Part shown: in pieces, positions 34,516 to 45,365 of the stretch
Position numbering within the stretch: position 1 is the stretch's first letter
How the letters are laid out: every line of letters starts with the position of its first letter
Origin: a virus
Direction: 5' to 3' (one strand)
Virus record (IMG/VR): IMGVR_UViG_3300042549_008523
Coordinates: 1-47,906 of that record
DNA length: 47,906 bases
Program-made: the position numbers and the translations under genes
The notes under the pieces: generated by a model
The model's input: the letters and a program-made list of their open reading frames with translations, nothing else
What the model was told of the DNA's origin: nothing
Databases searched by the model: none

Positions 34516-37500
34516 ATGTACATAACTGAATTATTTGAAGCACAGGACCCTAGTTCCGTACTGGTTGTATATCCAGGAAGATTCCAACCCTGGCACAAAG
34601 GCCATAAAATGGTCTATGACTATTTGACAAAAATCTACGGTCGTGACAATGTTTTTATTGCCACCAGCAACAAAGTAGATCCACCTCGTAGCCCGTTTAC
34701 GTTCAGTGAAAAACAACAGTTTATGCACTTGACCGGCATCAGTGCCGATCGGATAGTTGAAACACGCGATCCGTATCGTGCCTTGGAAATAGTTCAAAAA
34801 TACAATCCCAAAACTACAAGACTTGTTCTTGCGGTCAGCGAAAAAGACATGGCAGAAGATCCTAGATTCAAGTTTGGATACAAAAAAGATGGTAGTCCCA
34901 CTTATTTTCAACAAATGCCAAAAAATGTCAACGATATGCAACCTTTTGAAATGCATGGTTACATTATGACTGTGCCCACATTCAATTTTACTGTGTTGGG
35001 CGAACCCATGAAGTCAGCCACAGAAGTTCGTGCACAATTTGCACAAGCTGATGAAGCAACTCAACAGGCCATTGTCAAAGACCTGTTTGGAGCATATGAT
35101 CGCCATGTGCATGACATAATGAAACACAAACTGTCACAGGCCATAACCGAATCCATTGCAGTAGGAACCAAGCTCGACTTGACAAAAAATTACGGTAACT
35201 TTGAAACCTTGATCGGAGTAGTAAAAGATGTCACACCCAGCGGCAAGTTAAAAATTCAAATTGCACAGGCCGAACCGGTGCCTGGCAAAAAAGGTGCAGT
35301 CCGAGTGGGCGATGTTGTCACCGTGGCTGCTAACTATGTTAAGAAAACAGTTGCAGAAAATTTTGCTGATGGTCGGAATCCCGAAGACAAAGGTGATGCT
35401 AAACGACATGGTGTACCTACCAAAGCTAGTGTGAGCACTCTACGCAAAGTAGCTAAACAAGGTGGTCGCAAAGGACAACTGGCACATTGGATGGCTAATA
35501 TGAAATCGGGTCGTGCCAAAGCCAAGAATGAATCTGTAACCGGATCAAATCAACAAAATAAGAAATTTGTTTTGTATCTCAATGGTGAACCTGTTGCTAA
35601 ATTTGATACTGAACAAGAAGCCAGACAACAAAGTAGATATATAACAGATCCCAATACTCAAATTGAACTCAAACATGAAATATGTACATTGACCCCAGTT
35701 CAGTTAAAAGAAAATTTAAAAACTTGGGCCCAATTGGATCAAGGTGTAGCGGAGGCTGCAACAGATGACCCACGTTTTCAAAAGATGATGGGGAACATAC
35801 AGAAATCTACTCCCAACCCAGTTAACGGGTATGTGGCAGTCAGTTATGCCAGCGAACGTCCTTCAAAGAAAATCAAAGGTGTTACATACAATGGCAAACC
35901 AATGCCCGGCACGGTTGATCCTGAAGAATTCATGGGCAGTAAAATAAAATTCACACCCGATCAAATTGAAGAAAAACTAATGAAAATTGGCCAAAAATAC
36001 GGGTGGGACTCAATTGATCCTGGACATGGCCAAGGCTATGACGAATTGTATTTTGATACCAGTGCAGAATATACATCAGCCACTCAACGCCAACTGGCTG
36101 TAAACATAGTCAAGACTGTTAACGAAATTGATAAATTCTTTAATGAAATTAACAGAAGCTTACAAGCCACTGGATTGCCAGGATACAAAGTAAATGTATG
36201 GCAAGGTATGGGAGAAAATGGCAACATAAATCAACACGAAGATTTATCTCATATTACTAATATTGCCAAAGGTCAGACAGCAAAACCAGATGCCGGACCA
36301 GCCATTGGTAAAATGATTCTAAAGCACTTGCCAAGTTATGAAGCTGAGAATGATGAATTAGGATATGATCCACAGGCGTTCACAATGGCCAAGGCCATTG
36401 CAAATACCTATATTACTCAAGGTGAGCGTGCTGGACTCGAAGCACAGGGATCAAAGATTGCAGGCAATTTAAGTGTAAGCGATATGATAGATGAATTATT
36501 AAGTGATGCTGGCGCTAGTGGTTTAAGAACTATCTGGACGCTTGACGAGCAAGGTGTGGCGGAGGCAACAGGCGATGAGAGATTTGACAGCATGATGGGA
36601 CAGATCACAGGCGGTGCTGGTGCCAGGCAAGGTGTAGATAATTTGAATAAGTCCCTCACTGCAAGAACAGGCAGCGACCCCGAGACTGCATTGGCCAAAT
36701 TTGGTCAGGAATTTATAAAATGGCTTGAAGATCTTTGCCGTGAGTTTGCCAAGCAAGGTGCAGATAGATTTAATAAATTAAAAAAATTAAGCGAATTCGA
36801 AGACGGTGGCGAAACCATGGCGCACTGGTTGATTGATGTTGCTAAACAGACCAAGACCTCGGGTATTACACTGGCAGACATACAGGAATTTTCTAGCGAG
36901 TTTAATACCCATGGAATGTGGGCCTGGCAAATGTTCCCTATAGCATGGAGTCAGAACGAATGGCAAGACTATAAAGATCAATGGACTGGTCCCAATGGTT
37001 ACATAGCCAATCTGAGACATAGTCCTGAGCAAGGTGTGGCGGAAGGCTCAGGAGAAGACCCACTTGACCTAAGTTCTGATTATGCTTTATACATTGCCAA
37101 TGCTGGTCGTAAGATGATGACGCAATTGACCAACTTGTCTAAAAAAATACAAACAGACAGTGCAGCCGCACAAAATGCAAAACGTTGGAATCTGGGTGAT
37201 TATATGCACCAACACTACGAAACCGATGACCTATATGCCATCAACCAAGTGTTTGAAGAATACGGCGTAGGCGGCTTTTTTGATCAAAACCTATATGAGT
37301 TGCTGGCCAATTGGTCATCACAAGGCCCGGAATATGTAACCACCTGGAAACAATACAGCGGCGATGTCGTAAAGAACAGCACCAGAAAGCCCGGTGCCCA
37401 ATCTGTGCATGAGCAAGGTGTAGCGGAAGGCTTCCCTCAACCAGGCGAATCATCAGGTAAGGCCAAACAATTTAATCCAAACGCAAAAGTTCAAACAAAA

Positions 37501-38928
37501 GAAATGACATTGGACCAAATACTTGCTACTGTCAAAGGCATTCCGTATGTGAACAATGTAGTTGATGATTGGGACGCAAAAGATTATAGTTGGGGTGTGA
37601 CTAAAAAAGTCATTGAATACGCAGAATACCTACAAAAGAATCCACAGTCTGTCGCTAACTTACCACCATTAGTCGTAATAGATGGACAGTTAAATGATGG
37701 TGCTCATAGACTATCTGCTATCAATCTATTACAGAAAAGAATGGATCCAAAAAATCCATTATGGAAACAAGTAAAGTTAAAAGTAAACTTTGGCACATCA
37801 GCAGATGTAGCGGCAGAGCAAGGTGTGGCGGAAGGCTTAGAATACGCAGATAAACTATCAGGTCTAGTGGACTTGCCCGTATTTAATTCTTCTACTAATC
37901 CCAACCCAAGTGGCGTTGCTAAAGTAGTTAATACTGGTGACAGAATAATGGTAGTTATGAATGTTCGCGGTGTTAATGTTCCTTATTATATCAGCACTGG
38001 CCAGGGTGGCAAGGCTTCGGTTCCAACAGGAAAATGGTATCCGGTATTTGGAGTACATTCCTCGGGCTGGTTAAACAAGGGCGGCGAAGACTCTATTAAC
38101 AAGTTCTACGGCAGCAAAATGTTAGCATTAAACGCTGGTAGATTAAACAATGCCTTGGGTGATTTATCTAGTGTAGAAGCACAAATACCTTTTATGAAGA
38201 AGACTGGTTTTGCAATTATCAACAAAGATTTGCAACCAATGGGACACTCTGAAGTTAGTGCTAATCCTAATGCATTTAAAGAGCGAGTCAATAGTTTTCT
38301 AGCCAAACTAGGCGAAGGTCCTTACTACACCATAGATAAACCTAAAGAACCAGGTGTGGCAGAAGGCGACGAAAATCAATATCGTAGACCGTCGTCAATT
38401 GAAGCAGCTAAAATTAGCCAGCAGACCAATGCAAAACTCGATCCGGCCCGCTCAAAGTTTGTTTGGAAACGACCCAACCAGATTGGTGGAAGTTTTAGTG
38501 AACAAGATTTAGTATCCAAAGGCTTTAAAAAGTCGCAATACAACTCCTGGGGCGGCACACAGGCCATGTGGAATCGTTTGACCACAGTGGGCGAGCAACT
38601 CGATCGCCCCACACCAACAGCACAACAAATACTAGACAAGCACAATCTCAGTGTAGAAGATTTTATAGCACAGCTGAGACTGGGCGTAAAAGTAGAGCTC
38701 GAGCATACAAAAGATGCCAAGATAGCTTATGAAATAGCATTAGATCACTTGAACGAACGACCCGATTATTACACAGTATTGGCCCGAACTGGATTAGAAG
38801 AAGCTGCATCGGGCTACATTCCTACAAAAGCCGAAAAGGACGACCCAAGGTTTAAAACAGCGTTGACCGTGGATGTTCGTCCGGGAACTGACAAAAAGAA
38901 CATGCGGGCACTACGCTTGATCAAGTGA
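34516..38928 (+). CDS. Giant modular protein with EQGVAEG linkers, N-terminal nucleotidyltransferase domain
   Basis: This 1470-residue protein is a string of unrelated modules. Residues 1-210 are a NadM/cytidylyltransferase-like domain (VVYPGRFQPWHKGH; SPFTFSEKQQFM; KSATEVR). Residues 212-340 form a basic module (KKTVAENFADG, RHGVPTKAS). Six EQGVAEG-type heptads follow at residues 408, 678, 838, 966, 1101 and 1278. Between them are: a 270-residue unknown module, two about 120-150-residue helical modules, a ParB-like module (about 975-1100, DGQLNDGAHRLSAINLL), a beta-rich module (1108-1277) and a C-terminal DUF5661-like module (LEHTKDAKIAYEIALDHLNE). The heptad V-A-E fits the prohead-protease rule [ILV]-x-E, so the protein may be cut into pieces in the capsid. 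Function inferred. Confidence 0.75.
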   Translation: MYITELFEAQDPSSVLVVYPGRFQPWHKGHKMVYDYLTKIYGRDNVFIATSNKVDPPRSPFTFSEKQQFMHLTGISADRIVETRDPYRALEIVQKYNPKTTRLVLAVSEKDMAEDPRFKFGYKKDGSPTYFQQMPKNVNDMQPFEMHGYIMTVPTFNFTVLGEPMKSATEVRAQFAQADEATQQAIVKDLFGAYDRHVHDIMKHKLSQAITESIAVGTKLDLTKNYGNFETLIGVVKDVTPSGKLKIQIAQAEPVPGKKGAVRVGDVVTVAANYVKKTVAENFADGRNPEDKGDAKRHGVPTKASVSTLRKVAKQGGRKGQLAHWMANMKSGRAKAKNESVTGSNQQNKKFVLYLNGEPVAKFDTEQEARQQSRYITDPNTQIELKHEICTLTPVQLKENLKTWAQLDQGVAEAATDDPRFQKMMGNIQKSTPNPVNGYVAVSYASERPSKKIKGVTYNGKPMPGTVDPEEFMGSKIKFTPDQIEEKLMKIGQKYGWDSIDPGHGQGYDELYFDTSAEYTSATQRQLAVNIVKTVNEIDKFFNEINRSLQATGLPGYKVNVWQGMGENGNINQHEDLSHITNIAKGQTAKPDAGPAIGKMILKHLPSYEAENDELGYDPQAFTMAKAIANTYITQGERAGLEAQGSKIAGNLSVSDMIDELLSDAGASGLRTIWTLDEQGVAEATGDERFDSMMGQITGGAGARQGVDNLNKSLTARTGSDPETALAKFGQEFIKWLEDLCREFAKQGADRFNKLKKLSEFEDGGETMAHWLIDVAKQTKTSGITLADIQEFSSEFNTHGMWAWQMFPIAWSQNEWQDYKDQWTGPNGYIANLRHSPEQGVAEGSGEDPLDLSSDYALYIANAGRKMMTQLTNLSKKIQTDSAAAQNAKRWNLGDYMHQHYETDDLYAINQVFEEYGVGGFFDQNLYELLANWSSQGPEYVTTWKQYSGDVVKNSTRKPGAQSVHEQGVAEGFPQPGESSGKAKQFNPNAKVQTKEMTLDQILATVKGIPYVNNVVDDWDAKDYSWGVTKKVIEYAEYLQKNPQSVANLPPLVVIDGQLNDGAHRLSAINLLQKRMDPKNPLWKQVKLKVNFGTSADVAAEQGVAEGLEYADKLSGLVDLPVFNSSTNPNPSGVAKVVNTGDRIMVVMNVRGVNVPYYISTGQGGKASVPTGKWYPVFGVHSSGWLNKGGEDSINKFYGSKMLALNAGRLNNALGDLSSVEAQIPFMKKTGFAIINKDLQPMGHSEVSANPNAFKERVNSFLAKLGEGPYYTIDKPKEPGVAEGDENQYRRPSSIEAAKISQQTNAKLDPARSKFVWKRPNQIGGSFSEQDLVSKGFKKSQYNSWGGTQAMWNRLTTVGEQLDRPTPTAQQILDKHNLSVEDFIAQLRLGVKVELEHTKDAKIAYEIALDHLNERPDYYTVLARTGLEEAASGYIPTKAEKDDPRFKTALTVDVRPGTDKKNMRALRLIK
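35737..38367 (+). repeat. EQGVAEG-coding 21-nt repeats, first protein (6 copies)
   Basis: Copies are at 35737-35757 (DQGVAEA), 36547-36567 (EQGVAEA), 37027-37047, 37411-37431 and 37816-37836 (EQGVAEG), and 38347-38367 (EPGVAEG). All are in frame. The core CAAGGTGTGGCGGAAGGC is nearly identical in DNA, including a GCG codon, while the sequences between copies are unrelated. Spacing varies from 384 to 810 nt. Confidence 0.93.
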
Positions 38929-42462: not shown

Positions 42463-42897
42463 ATGGAAGAATTACAAAAAGCAGCAAAGATTGCATTTGC
42501 CAGTGAATTTAGTTTTTATCTGAAAGCTCACCAGTTTCATTGGAATGTAGAAGGTCTCAACTTTAAACAACTACACGACTTGTTTGGTGGCATCTACGAA
42601 GAAGTTTACGACAGTATTGACGAGTTCGCTGAAAAGATTCGAGGCCTTGACACATACATGCCCGGAAGTTACACTCGTTTCAACATGTTGACCAAAATAG
42701 AAGACGAAACCGAAATACTAGATGCAGGCATCATGGTGCAACAATTGTTAGACGACAGCAACAAAATGGTCAAGATTTTTAAAATGGTATTTGATCTGAG
42801 CGAAGCAGCAGGTGAGCATGGATTCAGTGATTTTGTTGCTGGTCGCATGGATGCACACCGCAAACACAGCTGGATGCTTCGTGCTACATTGAAATGA
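42463..42897 (+). CDS. dps: Dps/ferritin-like protein
   Basis: This 144-residue four-helix protein has the Dps signature AHQFHWNVEGLNFKQLHDLF and DSIDEFAEKIRGL. Aligned by eye with E. coli Dps, the ferroxidase-site residues His26, His38, Asp53 and Glu57 are present, while the position of Asp67 is Gly42. Dps forms 12-mers that oxidise iron, protect DNA from peroxide and may compact DNA. There is no gap to the preceding giant protein gene, and it overlaps the next by 4 nt, so it is expressed with the capsid-associated block. It may protect or be packaged with DNA; inferred. Confidence 0.88.
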   Translation: MEELQKAAKIAFASEFSFYLKAHQFHWNVEGLNFKQLHDLFGGIYEEVYDSIDEFAEKIRGLDTYMPGSYTRFNMLTKIEDETEILDAGIMVQQLLDDSNKMVKIFKMVFDLSEAAGEHGFSDFVAGRMDAHRKHSWMLRATLK

Positions 42898-43280: not shown

Positions 43281-44113
43281 GAGCCACTGAGATTGCCATT
43301 GTAGAAAAAAAGAAAAAGCGTAGCCGACGTCGACCACGTTGGGCAGCATACGGTCCAGGGCCGTACGGCTGGTACGGTTACGATGCAGGCTACAGCGGAG
43401 ATAGTGGCGGCGGTAGTATGGAAGAAGACAGCATTGCTGGTAATGTTTCCTACAGCGATCAGTTGTCTCCAAAAGCCTGGAGTGGCAATCTTATCCGCAC
43501 TGAAGTAAGGTACAAGTTGCTGCAAACAGCCAAGGCATTTATTGGTTATTTAGATATACCAGGTTTCAGAGTACTTGACATTGTGCTGACTGGCAGTATG
43601 GCCAACTATAACTACACCGACTATTCAGACTTTGATGTGCATGTGGTTACCCAATACGCAGACCTACAGTGCGATGACCTGGCTGAAGCATTCTATCGTG
43701 CAAAAAAACAGTTATGGAATGATCAACACGATGTTGTCATAAGGGGTCACGATGTTGAACTGTATGTAGAGGATGTTGACGACCCTCCTGTCAGCTCAGG
43801 CGTTTTTAGCTTGTTAGACAACCAATGGTTGGAACGACCCGATTACGCTCCGCCTGACATAAATGGCAGTGCTGTTGGACTCAAGGTTCAAGACTTGATA
43901 AAACAAATTGAAAAAGTGTTACACACGGCAGATGATCCTGAAGACATCCGCAGATTGTCCGGCAAGTTAAAAGACATGCGACAAGCCGGGCTTGACGCCA
44001 ATGGCGAGTTTAGTGTTGAAAATTTGGCCTTCAAAGTTCTAAGAAATCAAGGCTATATAGATCAACTGTACAAAGAATTCAATCGTCAAATTGACATAGA
44101 TCTCAGTTTATGA
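43277..44113 (+). CDS. Nucleotidyltransferase-fold protein with basic N-terminus
   Basis: The 278-residue protein starts MRATEIAIVEKKKKRSRRRP, then a Gly/Tyr-rich linker (25-47). Residues 100-125 hold the nucleotidyltransferase motif LTGSMANYNYTDYSDFDVHV: Gly106-Ser107 and metal-binding Asp118 and Asp120. A third acidic residue may be in VELYVEDVDDPP. Helical residues follow. The target (nucleic acid, antibiotic or protein) is unknown. The first ten residues resemble T4 capsid-targeting peptides in length and end I-V-E, so it may be packaged; inferred. It is coupled by ATGA on both sides. Confidence 0.72.
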   Translation: MRATEIAIVEKKKKRSRRRPRWAAYGPGPYGWYGYDAGYSGDSGGGSMEEDSIAGNVSYSDQLSPKAWSGNLIRTEVRYKLLQTAKAFIGYLDIPGFRVLDIVLTGSMANYNYTDYSDFDVHVVTQYADLQCDDLAEAFYRAKKQLWNDQHDVVIRGHDVELYVEDVDDPPVSSGVFSLLDNQWLERPDYAPPDINGSAVGLKVQDLIKQIEKVLHTADDPEDIRRLSGKLKDMRQAGLDANGEFSVENLAFKVLRNQGYIDQLYKEFNRQIDIDLSL

Positions 44114-44298
44114 AAGGGCCAGCAATGGAACAATACATGGACGATTACGACAGTTACCAGCGATACACATCAAGTCATTGTAAATGCAGGTGTCATGCAC
44201 ACTGCGGACATAGTTGCATGACTGACGATTGTGACTGCAACGAATGCCGCTGTTTGAGTTGCGAAGACACACATTTGGCAGAACATAGTTCAAATTAA
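44110..44298 (+). CDS. 62-aa Cys/His-rich protein
   Basis: Residues 23-52 contain ten Cys and several His in a short stretch (HCKCRCHAHCGHSC, then DCDCNECRCLSCEDTH). That density suggests metal binding, either a zinc-finger-like knuckle or a metallothionein-like cluster. The start overlaps the previous stop (ATGA). I know no matching family. Confidence 0.62.
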   Translation: MKGPAMEQYMDDYDSYQRYTSSHCKCRCHAHCGHSCMTDDCDCNECRCLSCEDTHLAEHSSN

Positions 44299-44301
44299 AC
44301 A

Positions 44302-44913
44302 ATGCAATATATATCGGATAGTGATGTATGGGATCGGTGTCCTGTTGATTATCTTTGGATATACGACAAACTGATACTGGCAAGAAAACTAAACCATCGT
44401 GCAGCACCTGCAGGAATTTCAGTTCCCAAACCCGACTGGTATATTGTCAGACCCATAACAAACCTTAGGATGATGAGTCGTGGCGCTAGTAAACAATGGC
44501 TAACACCCGAAGATACCAATCTGGTGCCTGATGGTTATTTTTGGTCTGAGATGTTTGTTGGCAGGCACATATCTGTAGATTATCATTACGGGGTGCAAGA
44601 CTTGACAGTAGAAGGATTCAGAGACAACCCAGACCGATTGGATAGATTTTCCAAATGGACCAAAATTCCAGACCGTATAAAATTTCCCGAAGTGCTGGGC
44701 AATCTGTGGCAATTGACTCCTTGGGTCAATGTGGAATATGTAGGCGGTAGAATCATAGAAGTCCATTTAAGATGGAATGATGATTTTCAAAATCATTGTG
44801 CAGACACTATTTACCCAGTTTGGAAAGACAAACCAATTACTCAACCACCAAAAACTTCCTGGTATTCCAGCCCAGCAGAAGATCGTACAGGCTTTTGGGT
44901 GGCCGATAAATAA
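44302..44913 (+). CDS. 203-aa protein of unknown function
   Basis: This protein is Trp- and Tyr-rich and globular: SDVWDRCPVDYLWIYDKLIL, then DWYIVRPITNLRMMSRGASK and WTKIPDRIKFPEVLGNLWQL with NVEYVGGRIIEVHLRWNDDF. The region YIVRP and the late IIEVHLRW resemble ATP-grasp-type strands, but I cannot identify the core residues. The gene follows the Cys-rich gene by 3 nt. The structured RNA follows. Function unknown. Confidence 0.62.
   Translation: MQYISDSDVWDRCPVDYLWIYDKLILARKLNHRAAPAGISVPKPDWYIVRPITNLRMMSRGASKQWLTPEDTNLVPDGYFWSEMFVGRHISVDYHYGVQDLTVEGFRDNPDRLDRFSKWTKIPDRIKFPEVLGNLWQLTPWVNVEYVGGRIIEVHLRWNDDFQNHCADTIYPVWKDKPITQPPKTSWYSSPAEDRTGFWVADK
44906..44912 (+). promoter_or_regulatory. Late-type promoter motif ATAAATA upstream of structured RNA
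   Basis: ATAAATA overlaps the stop codon of the preceding gene. A start about 7 nt downstream would fall near 44919-44920, right where the first hairpin of the RNA candidate begins. Confidence 0.45.
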
Positions 44914-44920
44914 AAATATA

Positions 44921-45060
44921 AGATCCCCTACCTTGGGAACGTTGTCGCTACGATAAAAAGCGTCAGACAGGCGGCTGCTGCCTGGACTCAGAGTTACGCC
45001 AGACTCTGCTCAAAGTGAGCACTATCTTTGCCACAACGCTTGCTTTTGTCCAGCAAGTGC
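44921..45060 (+). ncRNA. Candidate structured RNA with five or six hairpins
   Basis: The 185-nt gap between genes folds by eye into successive stems: TCCC/GGGA (44924-27 with 44935-38), CGCT/AGCG (44946-49 with 44959-62), CAGGCGG/CTGCCTG (44968-74 with 44978-84, one G-T pair), CAGAGT/ACTCTG (44989-94 with 45003-08), CTCA/TGAG (45009-12 with 45016-19) and CGCTTGC/GCAAGTG (45037-43 with 45053-59, one G-T). A long-range stem CGTTGT/ACAACG (44940-45 with 45033-38) would close a multibranch loop, though it competes for two bases with the last hairpin. No T-loop or CCA fits a tRNA. The region is less AT-rich than other gaps here. Not identified with any known RNA class. Confidence 0.6.
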
Positions 45061-45098
45061 TTTACAATAACTAATTACTTTTTACAATAGGAGATTCT

Positions 45099-45365
45099 AT
45101 GAGCTCATCACCTCGAATGTTCAGCGGCGAACAAAAACTCAAACTTACACAAATTATCAATGAAGGCATGCAGGTCATGCACGAAATTGAAACTCTTAAC
45201 GAAGGGCTCAGTGACACTGTCAAAGCCATTGCAGAAGAATTGGAAATCAAACCAACATTACTGAAAAAAGCAATTAAAATTGCACACAAGGCCAAATTGG
45301 GCGAAACCAATCGAGATCACGAAGACCTTAACACTATCCTCGAAACAGTTGGTAAAACTCTGTGA
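45099..45365 (+). CDS. 88-aa helical protein, T4 DsbA-like
   Basis: The protein is almost wholly helical: KLKLTQIINEGMQVMHEIET, then LSDTVKAIAEELEIKPTLLK and KAIKIAHKAKLGE. The pattern of two helices followed by an I-K-P-T-L-L-K-K-A turn resembles the small double-strand DNA-binding protein DsbA of T4, which stimulates late transcription. The ribosome site TAGGAG is good. The stop overlaps the next GTG start. DNA binding is inferred from likeness in size and pattern. Confidence 0.6.
   Translation: MSSSPRMFSGEQKLKLTQIINEGMQVMHEIETLNEGLSDTVKAIAEELEIKPTLLKKAIKIAHKAKLGETNRDHEDLNTILETVGKTL

Follow-up and report, generated by a model that had tools for sequence, protein, structure and literature searches.

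Two structured RNAs of T4-like cyanophages, manA and wcaG, were found in metagenomes (PMC2864571). In that report, manA is located in putative 5' UTRs, and wcaG mostly seems to act in gene regulation. Both are Rfam families, whereas the element described here matched no Rfam family. The pRNA of phage phi29 is likewise a phage-encoded folded RNA with loop contacts, but the present element differs from it in lacking an Rfam match, in its gene context and in its fold.

The element lies in a viral DNA stretch of 47,906 nucleotides (IMG/VR record IMGVR_UViG_3300042549_008523, positions 1 to 47,906; hereafter the window), in the gap between the stop of a 203-aa gene and the start of a DsbA-like gene (44914-45098, 185 nt). 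A preliminary description of this sequence had singled out the gap as unusually large and proposed that it encodes a multi-hairpin RNA, either a functional non-coding RNA (regulatory, pRNA-like or tRNA-like) or a long leader of the DsbA-polymerase operon. The gap is indeed large, and it contains no ORF of at least 60 aa. Almost certainly, a member of a hitherto undescribed family of small folded RNAs lies in it. The carriers of this family are very large bacterial viruses, most of them uncultured; no published description of such a family was found in the literature searched.

Layout of the gap upstream of dsbA

Two things are found in the gap: the structured RNA on its 5' side (44925-45024) and the dsbA promoter on its 3' side (45040-45068). 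The features of the region are as follows.

44302-44913, plus strand: upstream gene, 203 aa, stop at 44911-44913 (phrog_3577, E 5e-45)
44905-44912, plus strand: late promoter box GATAAATA, T4-type, overlapping the upstream gene's stop codon
44925-45024, plus strand: structured RNA element, whole (54.1 bits, E 2.3e-10 with covariance model R1, built from 66 sequences, the window's own among them)
44928-44952, plus strand: domain 1, antisense to 23S rRNA 1909-1933
44968-44984, plus strand: hairpin P2, 5 bp, with loop GGCUGCU at 44973-44979 (covariation; loop also antisense to the 16S 530 loop)
44989-45008, plus strand: hairpin P3, with loop stretch GUUACGCCA at 44993-45001 (covariation; rRNA match)
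45014-45020, plus strand: 3' tail AGUGAGC, pseudoknot partner of P2 loop positions 44974-44979
45040-45068, plus strand: sigma70-like promoter TTGCTT-N17-TACAAT of the dsbA transcript, outside the RNA (sequence boxes; same layout in relatives)
45099-45365, plus strand: DsbA-like protein, 88 aa (phrog_639, E 1e-8; Pfam Phage_DsbA, E 0.0035, under its cut-off)

The element begins 11 nt after the upstream gene's stop and is the sole R1 match in the window record. A ribosome-binding site (AGGAG, 45089-45093) precedes the DsbA start at 45099, and the DsbA-polymerase transcript would be expected to start near 45075, on the 3' side of the structured RNA, because of the promoter at 45040-45068. TTGNNN and TATAAT-like boxes about 17 nt apart are also the layout of most relatives in which dsbA adjoins the element. 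The DsbA-like protein has, in addition, a weak match to the DNA polymerase III delta C-terminal domain (PF21694, E 0.003, under cut-off).

The late-type box that had been read as the RNA's own promoter does stand just 5' of the gap, but it is not a feature of the family; ATAAATA occurs within 30 nt upstream in 5 of 172 contexts, and we rejected an own late promoter as a family trait. ATAAATA boxes occur eight times on the plus strand and once on the minus strand of the window, several of them just 5' of large genes.

Relatives in large phage genomes

Searches of IMG/VR by DsbA and by polymerase yielded at least 80 loci each, with some contigs in both sets. A profile made from the gap sequence alone already picked up relatives, and three profile rounds gave 105 matches among 161 loci. 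No profile match was obtained for 59 of 160 related loci, nor for 31 of the 107 loci with at least 1.5 kb upstream of dsbA. When R1 was run on those 59 loci it returned two good matches, at 53.3 bits (L035, a partial element at a contig end) and 46.5 bits (L152), as well as two distant ones at about 30 bits (L078 and L079); L034 scored at chance level. In L034 (1800-1930) the domain-1 hairpin region (CACCTTAGGGCCGTTGTCGTAACGG) is kept, while the second half is different and has no usual P2 loop.

A DNA pattern scan of viral sequences found at least 120 stretches. R1 was run on 80 of these, scoring 76 at 47 bits or more and one at 24 bits. The same pattern found at least 117 stretches in 84,980 bacterial and archaeal genomes, and the best of the 80 on which R1 was run reached 25.2 bits, which we took as chance. 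Run over 15 whole records, R1 found one strong copy each in 13 (the window and 12 contigs of 112-374 kb). It found no element in the 127-kb L005 contig, 14.2 bits in phage PA5oct (taken as chance), and no match in seven further cultured jumbo phages under stricter filters and without a positive control. A blastn search of two relatives against cultured phages returned short chance matches only. The nearest cultured polymerase found, that of Sinorhizobium phage Phosso, is 52% identical.

The tRNA-like and pRNA-like readings of the preliminary description gained nothing from searches for known RNAs: ARAGORN found no tRNA or tmRNA gene in the window, and none of the 4227 families of Rfam 15 reached its gathering cut-off in the window or in 20 relatives, matches otherwise being scattered and at chance level. 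The element represents a conserved orphan RNA family, absent from Rfam 15.

Fold and covariation

The element is, as predicted from its aligned relatives, a structured RNA with three hairpins (domain 1, P2, whose loop is 7 nt long, and P3) and a pseudoknot that joins the P2 loop to the 3' tail. We assessed this in an alignment (A1) of 66 elements drawn from 75 distinct ones; L137, L025, L139, L147, L018, L130, L009 and L036 were left out as near-duplicates and L155 as degenerate. In A1, 99.6% of P2 cells are paired, with G-C and C-G swapped freely. For the pseudoknot, in which loop G-GCUGCU meets tail AGU-G-AGC, 98.0% of cells are paired, and three of its six pairs show changes on both sides. 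P3 is paired in 75.5% of cells, and all four of the pairs counted there show compensations. In 500 shuffles the observed percentage, score and number of pairs changed on both sides were never reached, the number of pair types was reached three times, and slid registers brought pairing down to 30-46%.

By inspection, the pseudoknot is also swapped as a unit, as GCUCCCG/GGGG in L078 and L079, CCACU/AGUGG in L152, ACUACU/AGUAGU in L156 and CCGCU/AGCGG in L145. A P2 loop variant, GGGUGCU, keeps the pseudoknot by pairing with tail GACC; in L018 this loop faces tail GAGC, breaking one pair, the single case of its kind among 155 parsed elements. Among those 155, the P1 helix scored at least 5 in 48%, vs 20% with swapped partners, and the P3 helix in 30% vs 5%. 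P1 is more weakly supported than P2, P3 and the pseudoknot. The number of elements varies between counts from 122 to 176, unparsable elements or those near contig ends having been dropped.

The window itself keeps P2, P3 and the pseudoknot, and its domain 1 is among the more divergent (a P1 helix of 2 bp was found). Two of the stems listed in the preliminary description, CAGGC/GCCTG (44968-44984) and CAGAGT/ACTCTG (44989-45008), are thus named here as conserved helices P2 and P3, but by inspection the closing stem and stems 4 and 5 are not conserved. The closing stem (44940-45 with 45033-38) is present in the window, but its 3' arm lies beyond the end of the conserved element (about 45020-45024). 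A hairpin at 45007-45021 competes with the conserved pseudoknot tail, and the last stem, at 45039-45057, overlaps the -35 box of the promoter conserved 5' of dsbA.

Fold energy, suggested earlier as a check, separates the gap sequence from shuffled sequence weakly (z = -1.7 for 44906-45098 and -1.15 for 44930-45065, with -2.05 for the minus strand, also as a single sequence); it is homology, and not fold energy, that lifts the observation above chance. Compensatory changes across homologues, by comparison, support P2, P3 and the pseudoknot, and there is no conserved short reading frame: element lengths are spread over the three classes modulo 3 (50, 56 and 66 of 172), and the three frames are free of stops across the element in 1, 41 and 30 of 172. 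The element is non-coding, with the compensatory changes and lack of a conserved frame that mark a structured non-coding RNA. Covariation, single copy number and the absence of a reading frame together give good support to the original proposal of a functional phage ncRNA.

Genomic context

In a redundant set of loci with mechanically called ORFs, the first ORF upstream shares the strand of the element at 193 of 204 loci, and the first one downstream does so at 189 of 216. The genes around the element are varied cargo (deaminase-like, ferritin-like, fatty-acid desaturase, radical SAM and families without an assigned function), and since these flanking genes vary, the element belongs to neither neighbour.

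Several further gene features are recorded here in their own right. Just 5' of the window's 203-aa gene is a Cys/His-rich 62-aa frame (44110-44298, plus strand) without a Pfam or PHROG match. Further upstream, on the plus strand, are a Ferritin/Dps-like protein (42463-42897; Pfam Ferritin, E 6e-19) and a 1470-aa protein with an N-terminal cytidyltransferase-like match (34516-38928; phrog_395, E 1e-8). By eye, relatives repeatedly show a ferritin-like cluster 5' of the RNA, and the cargo proteins upstream of it in L032, L025, L020 and L023 seemingly share C-terminal sequence resembling SCKGSVTDLRKKAKNASGERAKMYHWCANMK, which may be a tag or targeting signal common to them. Downstream of the RNA (L144, L196, L053 and others) we found radical SAM proteins (Pfam) and, by eye, PP-loop ATP-binding and amidinotransferase-like proteins, which suggests that the cargo hot spot is a metabolic or peptide-modification island.

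The ends of the element are tightly placed. It starts between -5 and 25 nt from the upstream stop in 88 of 161 contexts (vs 23 of 648 random positions), and in 22 more of the 161 the stop is the TAG inside CCUUAG. ATAAATA occurs within 30 nt 3' of the element in 28 of 172, vs 0-1 further on, and a late box or sigma70-like promoter is common between the element and the next gene. Such an arrangement, with the start near a stop and the next promoter (ATAAATA, or the sigma70-like one before dsbA) often abutting the 3' end, is what one would expect of a 3' UTR device: a knot marking, protecting or processing the 3' end of the preceding late mRNA. We consider this distinctly unlikely, given one copy per record behind many different upstream genes and the plain hairpin and T-run terminator that follow the element in L279 and L264; compact phage gene spacing could by itself account for the tight ends. 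An intrinsic terminator was rejected, with no constant T run seen by eye after the tail and separate terminators in the same two loci.

Reading the element as a cis leader or riboswitch of the downstream gene fits the non-dsbA contexts, in which an ATG often follows 4-36 nt after the element, but it seems extremely unlikely overall. A late box or sigma70-like promoter commonly intervenes, the downstream genes are unrelated, and we therefore rejected leader control of the next gene. Nor does the proposed long leader of the DsbA-polymerase operon hold: in the window the sigma70-like promoter intervenes, and in some relatives the element is 0.5-2 kb from dsbA with whole genes between, so that it is not a dsbA leader.

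Complementarity to ribosomal RNA

Domain 1 has the consensus CUACCUUAGGACCGUUAU-GUUAC, which we take to be the complement of the 23S rRNA segment holding the I-CeuI site. All rRNA comparisons used E. coli rrnB in place of the host's own rRNA. Exact matches of at least 11 nt to antisense 23S occur in 156 of 170 distinct elements vs 30 of 850 same-size windows from the same loci, and 4 of 170 elements match sense 23S, although these counts are not independent because all elements are homologous. Dinucleotide shuffling gave a similar picture (152/166 elements vs 21/498). With gapped local alignment, the best antisense-23S place fell within 1900-1949 in 165 of 170; 113 of 170 scored above the 99th percentile and 38 above all 510 controls. 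Among 135 distinct forms of domain 1, 92 have at least 18 bases identical to antisense 23S 1905-1935, vs 5 for the sense strand. The segment that domain 1 would target is the universally conserved 23S ~1908-1933, running from H69 to H70/71.

In the window, 44928-44952 is identical to antisense 23S 1909-1933 at 20 of 25 positions, with two of the five changes giving G-U pairs, and the predicted duplex of 44927-44945 with 23S 1906-1945 has an energy of -23.7 kcal/mol. In the short element forms the complementarity falls to about 9-13 nt. The 10-mer CCTTAGGACC is perfect in 142 of 176 elements, the pattern-found loci among them having been selected for this motif. All 14 of its transitions (A to G or C to T) leave a G-U pair to the rRNA in place; there are also 24 transversions, including 17 C-to-G changes at the last position that amount to a one-base deletion. 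When the test for wobble is extended to the longer domain, it becomes weak (43 compatible vs 26 incompatible). Taken on the sequences, it is very likely that the rRNA complementarity exceeds chance and lies on one strand.

I-CeuI and I-PpoI target this same 23S segment. If the element acted as DNA, for example as a 23S-like homing-endonuclease target at a hot spot where cargo inserts, this would also suit the varied cargo genes on both sides. Compensatory changes in stems and pseudoknot, together with G-U pairs, are not expected of a DNA target, and this reading is barely credible.

The loops of P2 and P3 match antisense rRNA more weakly than domain 1 does, in the 16S and in nearby 23S segments. 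In many elements the P2 loop is antisense to 16S 518-528 (the 530 loop), and antisense 16S matches of at least 11 nt occur in 71 of 170 elements vs 9 of 850 controls. The match may be incidental, since P2 loop variants (GGGUGCU/GACC, GCUCCCG/GGGG, CCACU/AGUGG) follow the pseudoknot and not the rRNA, keeping the one and losing the other; this weakens the P2 loop alone as an anti-16S device. The commonest P3 loop, AUUCGCUAC, is found in 84 of 155 parsed elements and has 8 nt antisense to 23S from 1930. AGUCGUGCC follows (45/155; a 6-nt match to several 23S places including 1964), then a form of UUACGCCA, UACGCCA or ACGCCA (8/155; 23S 1971), and 9 of 155 have no listed motif. The match of the type-A P3 loop covers only 6 nt and is present at other 23S places too. 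In the window, eight of the nine letters of GUUACGCCA are antisense to 23S 1964-1971.

The element could instead be a structured RNA working through a protein partner or ligand, with domain 1 derived from a reverse-strand rRNA gene fragment or otherwise constrained, and no pairing to rRNA in the cell. The part that covaries best, P2-P3-pseudoknot, needs no rRNA, and the P2 loop variants just described speak for this account. It leaves aside, however, that the domain 1 loop is unpaired in the fold and still highly conserved over its ten bases, and that its transitions follow wobble pairing with rRNA. We regard it as unlikely.

The strand of the RNA

G-U exceeds A-C in P3 by 61 to 26, and slightly in P1, by 20 to 16. 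An earlier count gave 20 to 5 in P3, 60 to 0 in P2 (including positions outside the stem) and 1 to 9 in P1, which favours the other strand. The plus strand, and with it an antisense RNA, is favoured as the functional one because of the G-U excess, the operon direction and the wobble pattern. Were the minus strand functional, the RNA would mimic 23S H69-71 and the 16S 530 loop with its pseudoknot, and so serve ribosome-binding factors as a decoy. The minus-strand sequence is rRNA-sense, and by inspection its tail is similar to the 16S strand that completes the 530 pseudoknot. Against this are the orientation of the neighbouring ORFs, the prevalence of G-U over A-C in P3 and the wobble pattern, and we find the decoy very unlikely.

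A possible antisense RNA against the ribosome

We see about an even chance that the element is an antisense RNA which, through pairing with 23S rRNA, tunes or disables ribosomes. More tentatively, and on somewhat less than even terms, it may be the dedicated pseudoknotted antisense RNA of uncultured jumbo phages against 23S H69-H71. Its P3 loops would then derive from adjoining 23S segments, a contact with the 16S 530 loop might be added, and its role would be to control ribosomes in infection. From the computed fold, family, genomic place and strand-specific complementarity, we infer transcription, processing, rRNA binding and an effect on ribosomes. A trans-acting phage RNA of about 65-110 nt would be produced from the coding strand at the end of a late or cargo transcript, or, in the case of this window, perhaps from a late box of its own. 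The RNA would fold into the domain-1 hairpin and a P2-P3 unit locked by the pseudoknot, leaving a stretch of domain 1 exposed to base-pair with the invariant 23S 1908-1933. Further contacts, to 23S 1930-1972 and the 16S 530 loop, would come from the P3 loop and possibly the P2 loop. By pairing with rRNA that is nascent or in free subunits, the RNA could then stop or readjust the assembly of ribosomes or the joining of their subunits in the course of infection. It counts against this explanation that late harm to ribosomes would seem harmful to the phage itself.

Comparison with known antisense RNAs

We know of no phage RNA that targets rRNA directly, and none was found in the literature searched. 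If the antisense reading is true, this would be the first such RNA known, and H69-H71, a site central to subunit joining, would gain a natural ligand. It would be an RNA-based viral weapon or switch against the ribosome, aimed at a sequence common to all bacteria, and would open an approach to the question of how giant phages commandeer or spare the ribosomes of their hosts. Should it have no role at the rRNA, the family is still a conserved set of orphan RNAs across many large phage genomes.

The H/ACA and C/D guide RNAs of eukaryotes and archaea are likewise antisense to conserved rRNA, including the H69 region. The element differs from them in having, by eye, no box C/D or H/ACA layout, in matching no Rfam family and in occurring in phage contigs only. 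It also resembles the trans-encoded antisense sRNAs of the RNAIII and CopA/RNAI type, which are likewise structured and carry unpaired complementary stretches in hairpin loops. Their targets are mRNA or plasmid RNA, whereas here the apparent target is rRNA, a phage carries the RNA, and a pseudoknot locks one of the loops.
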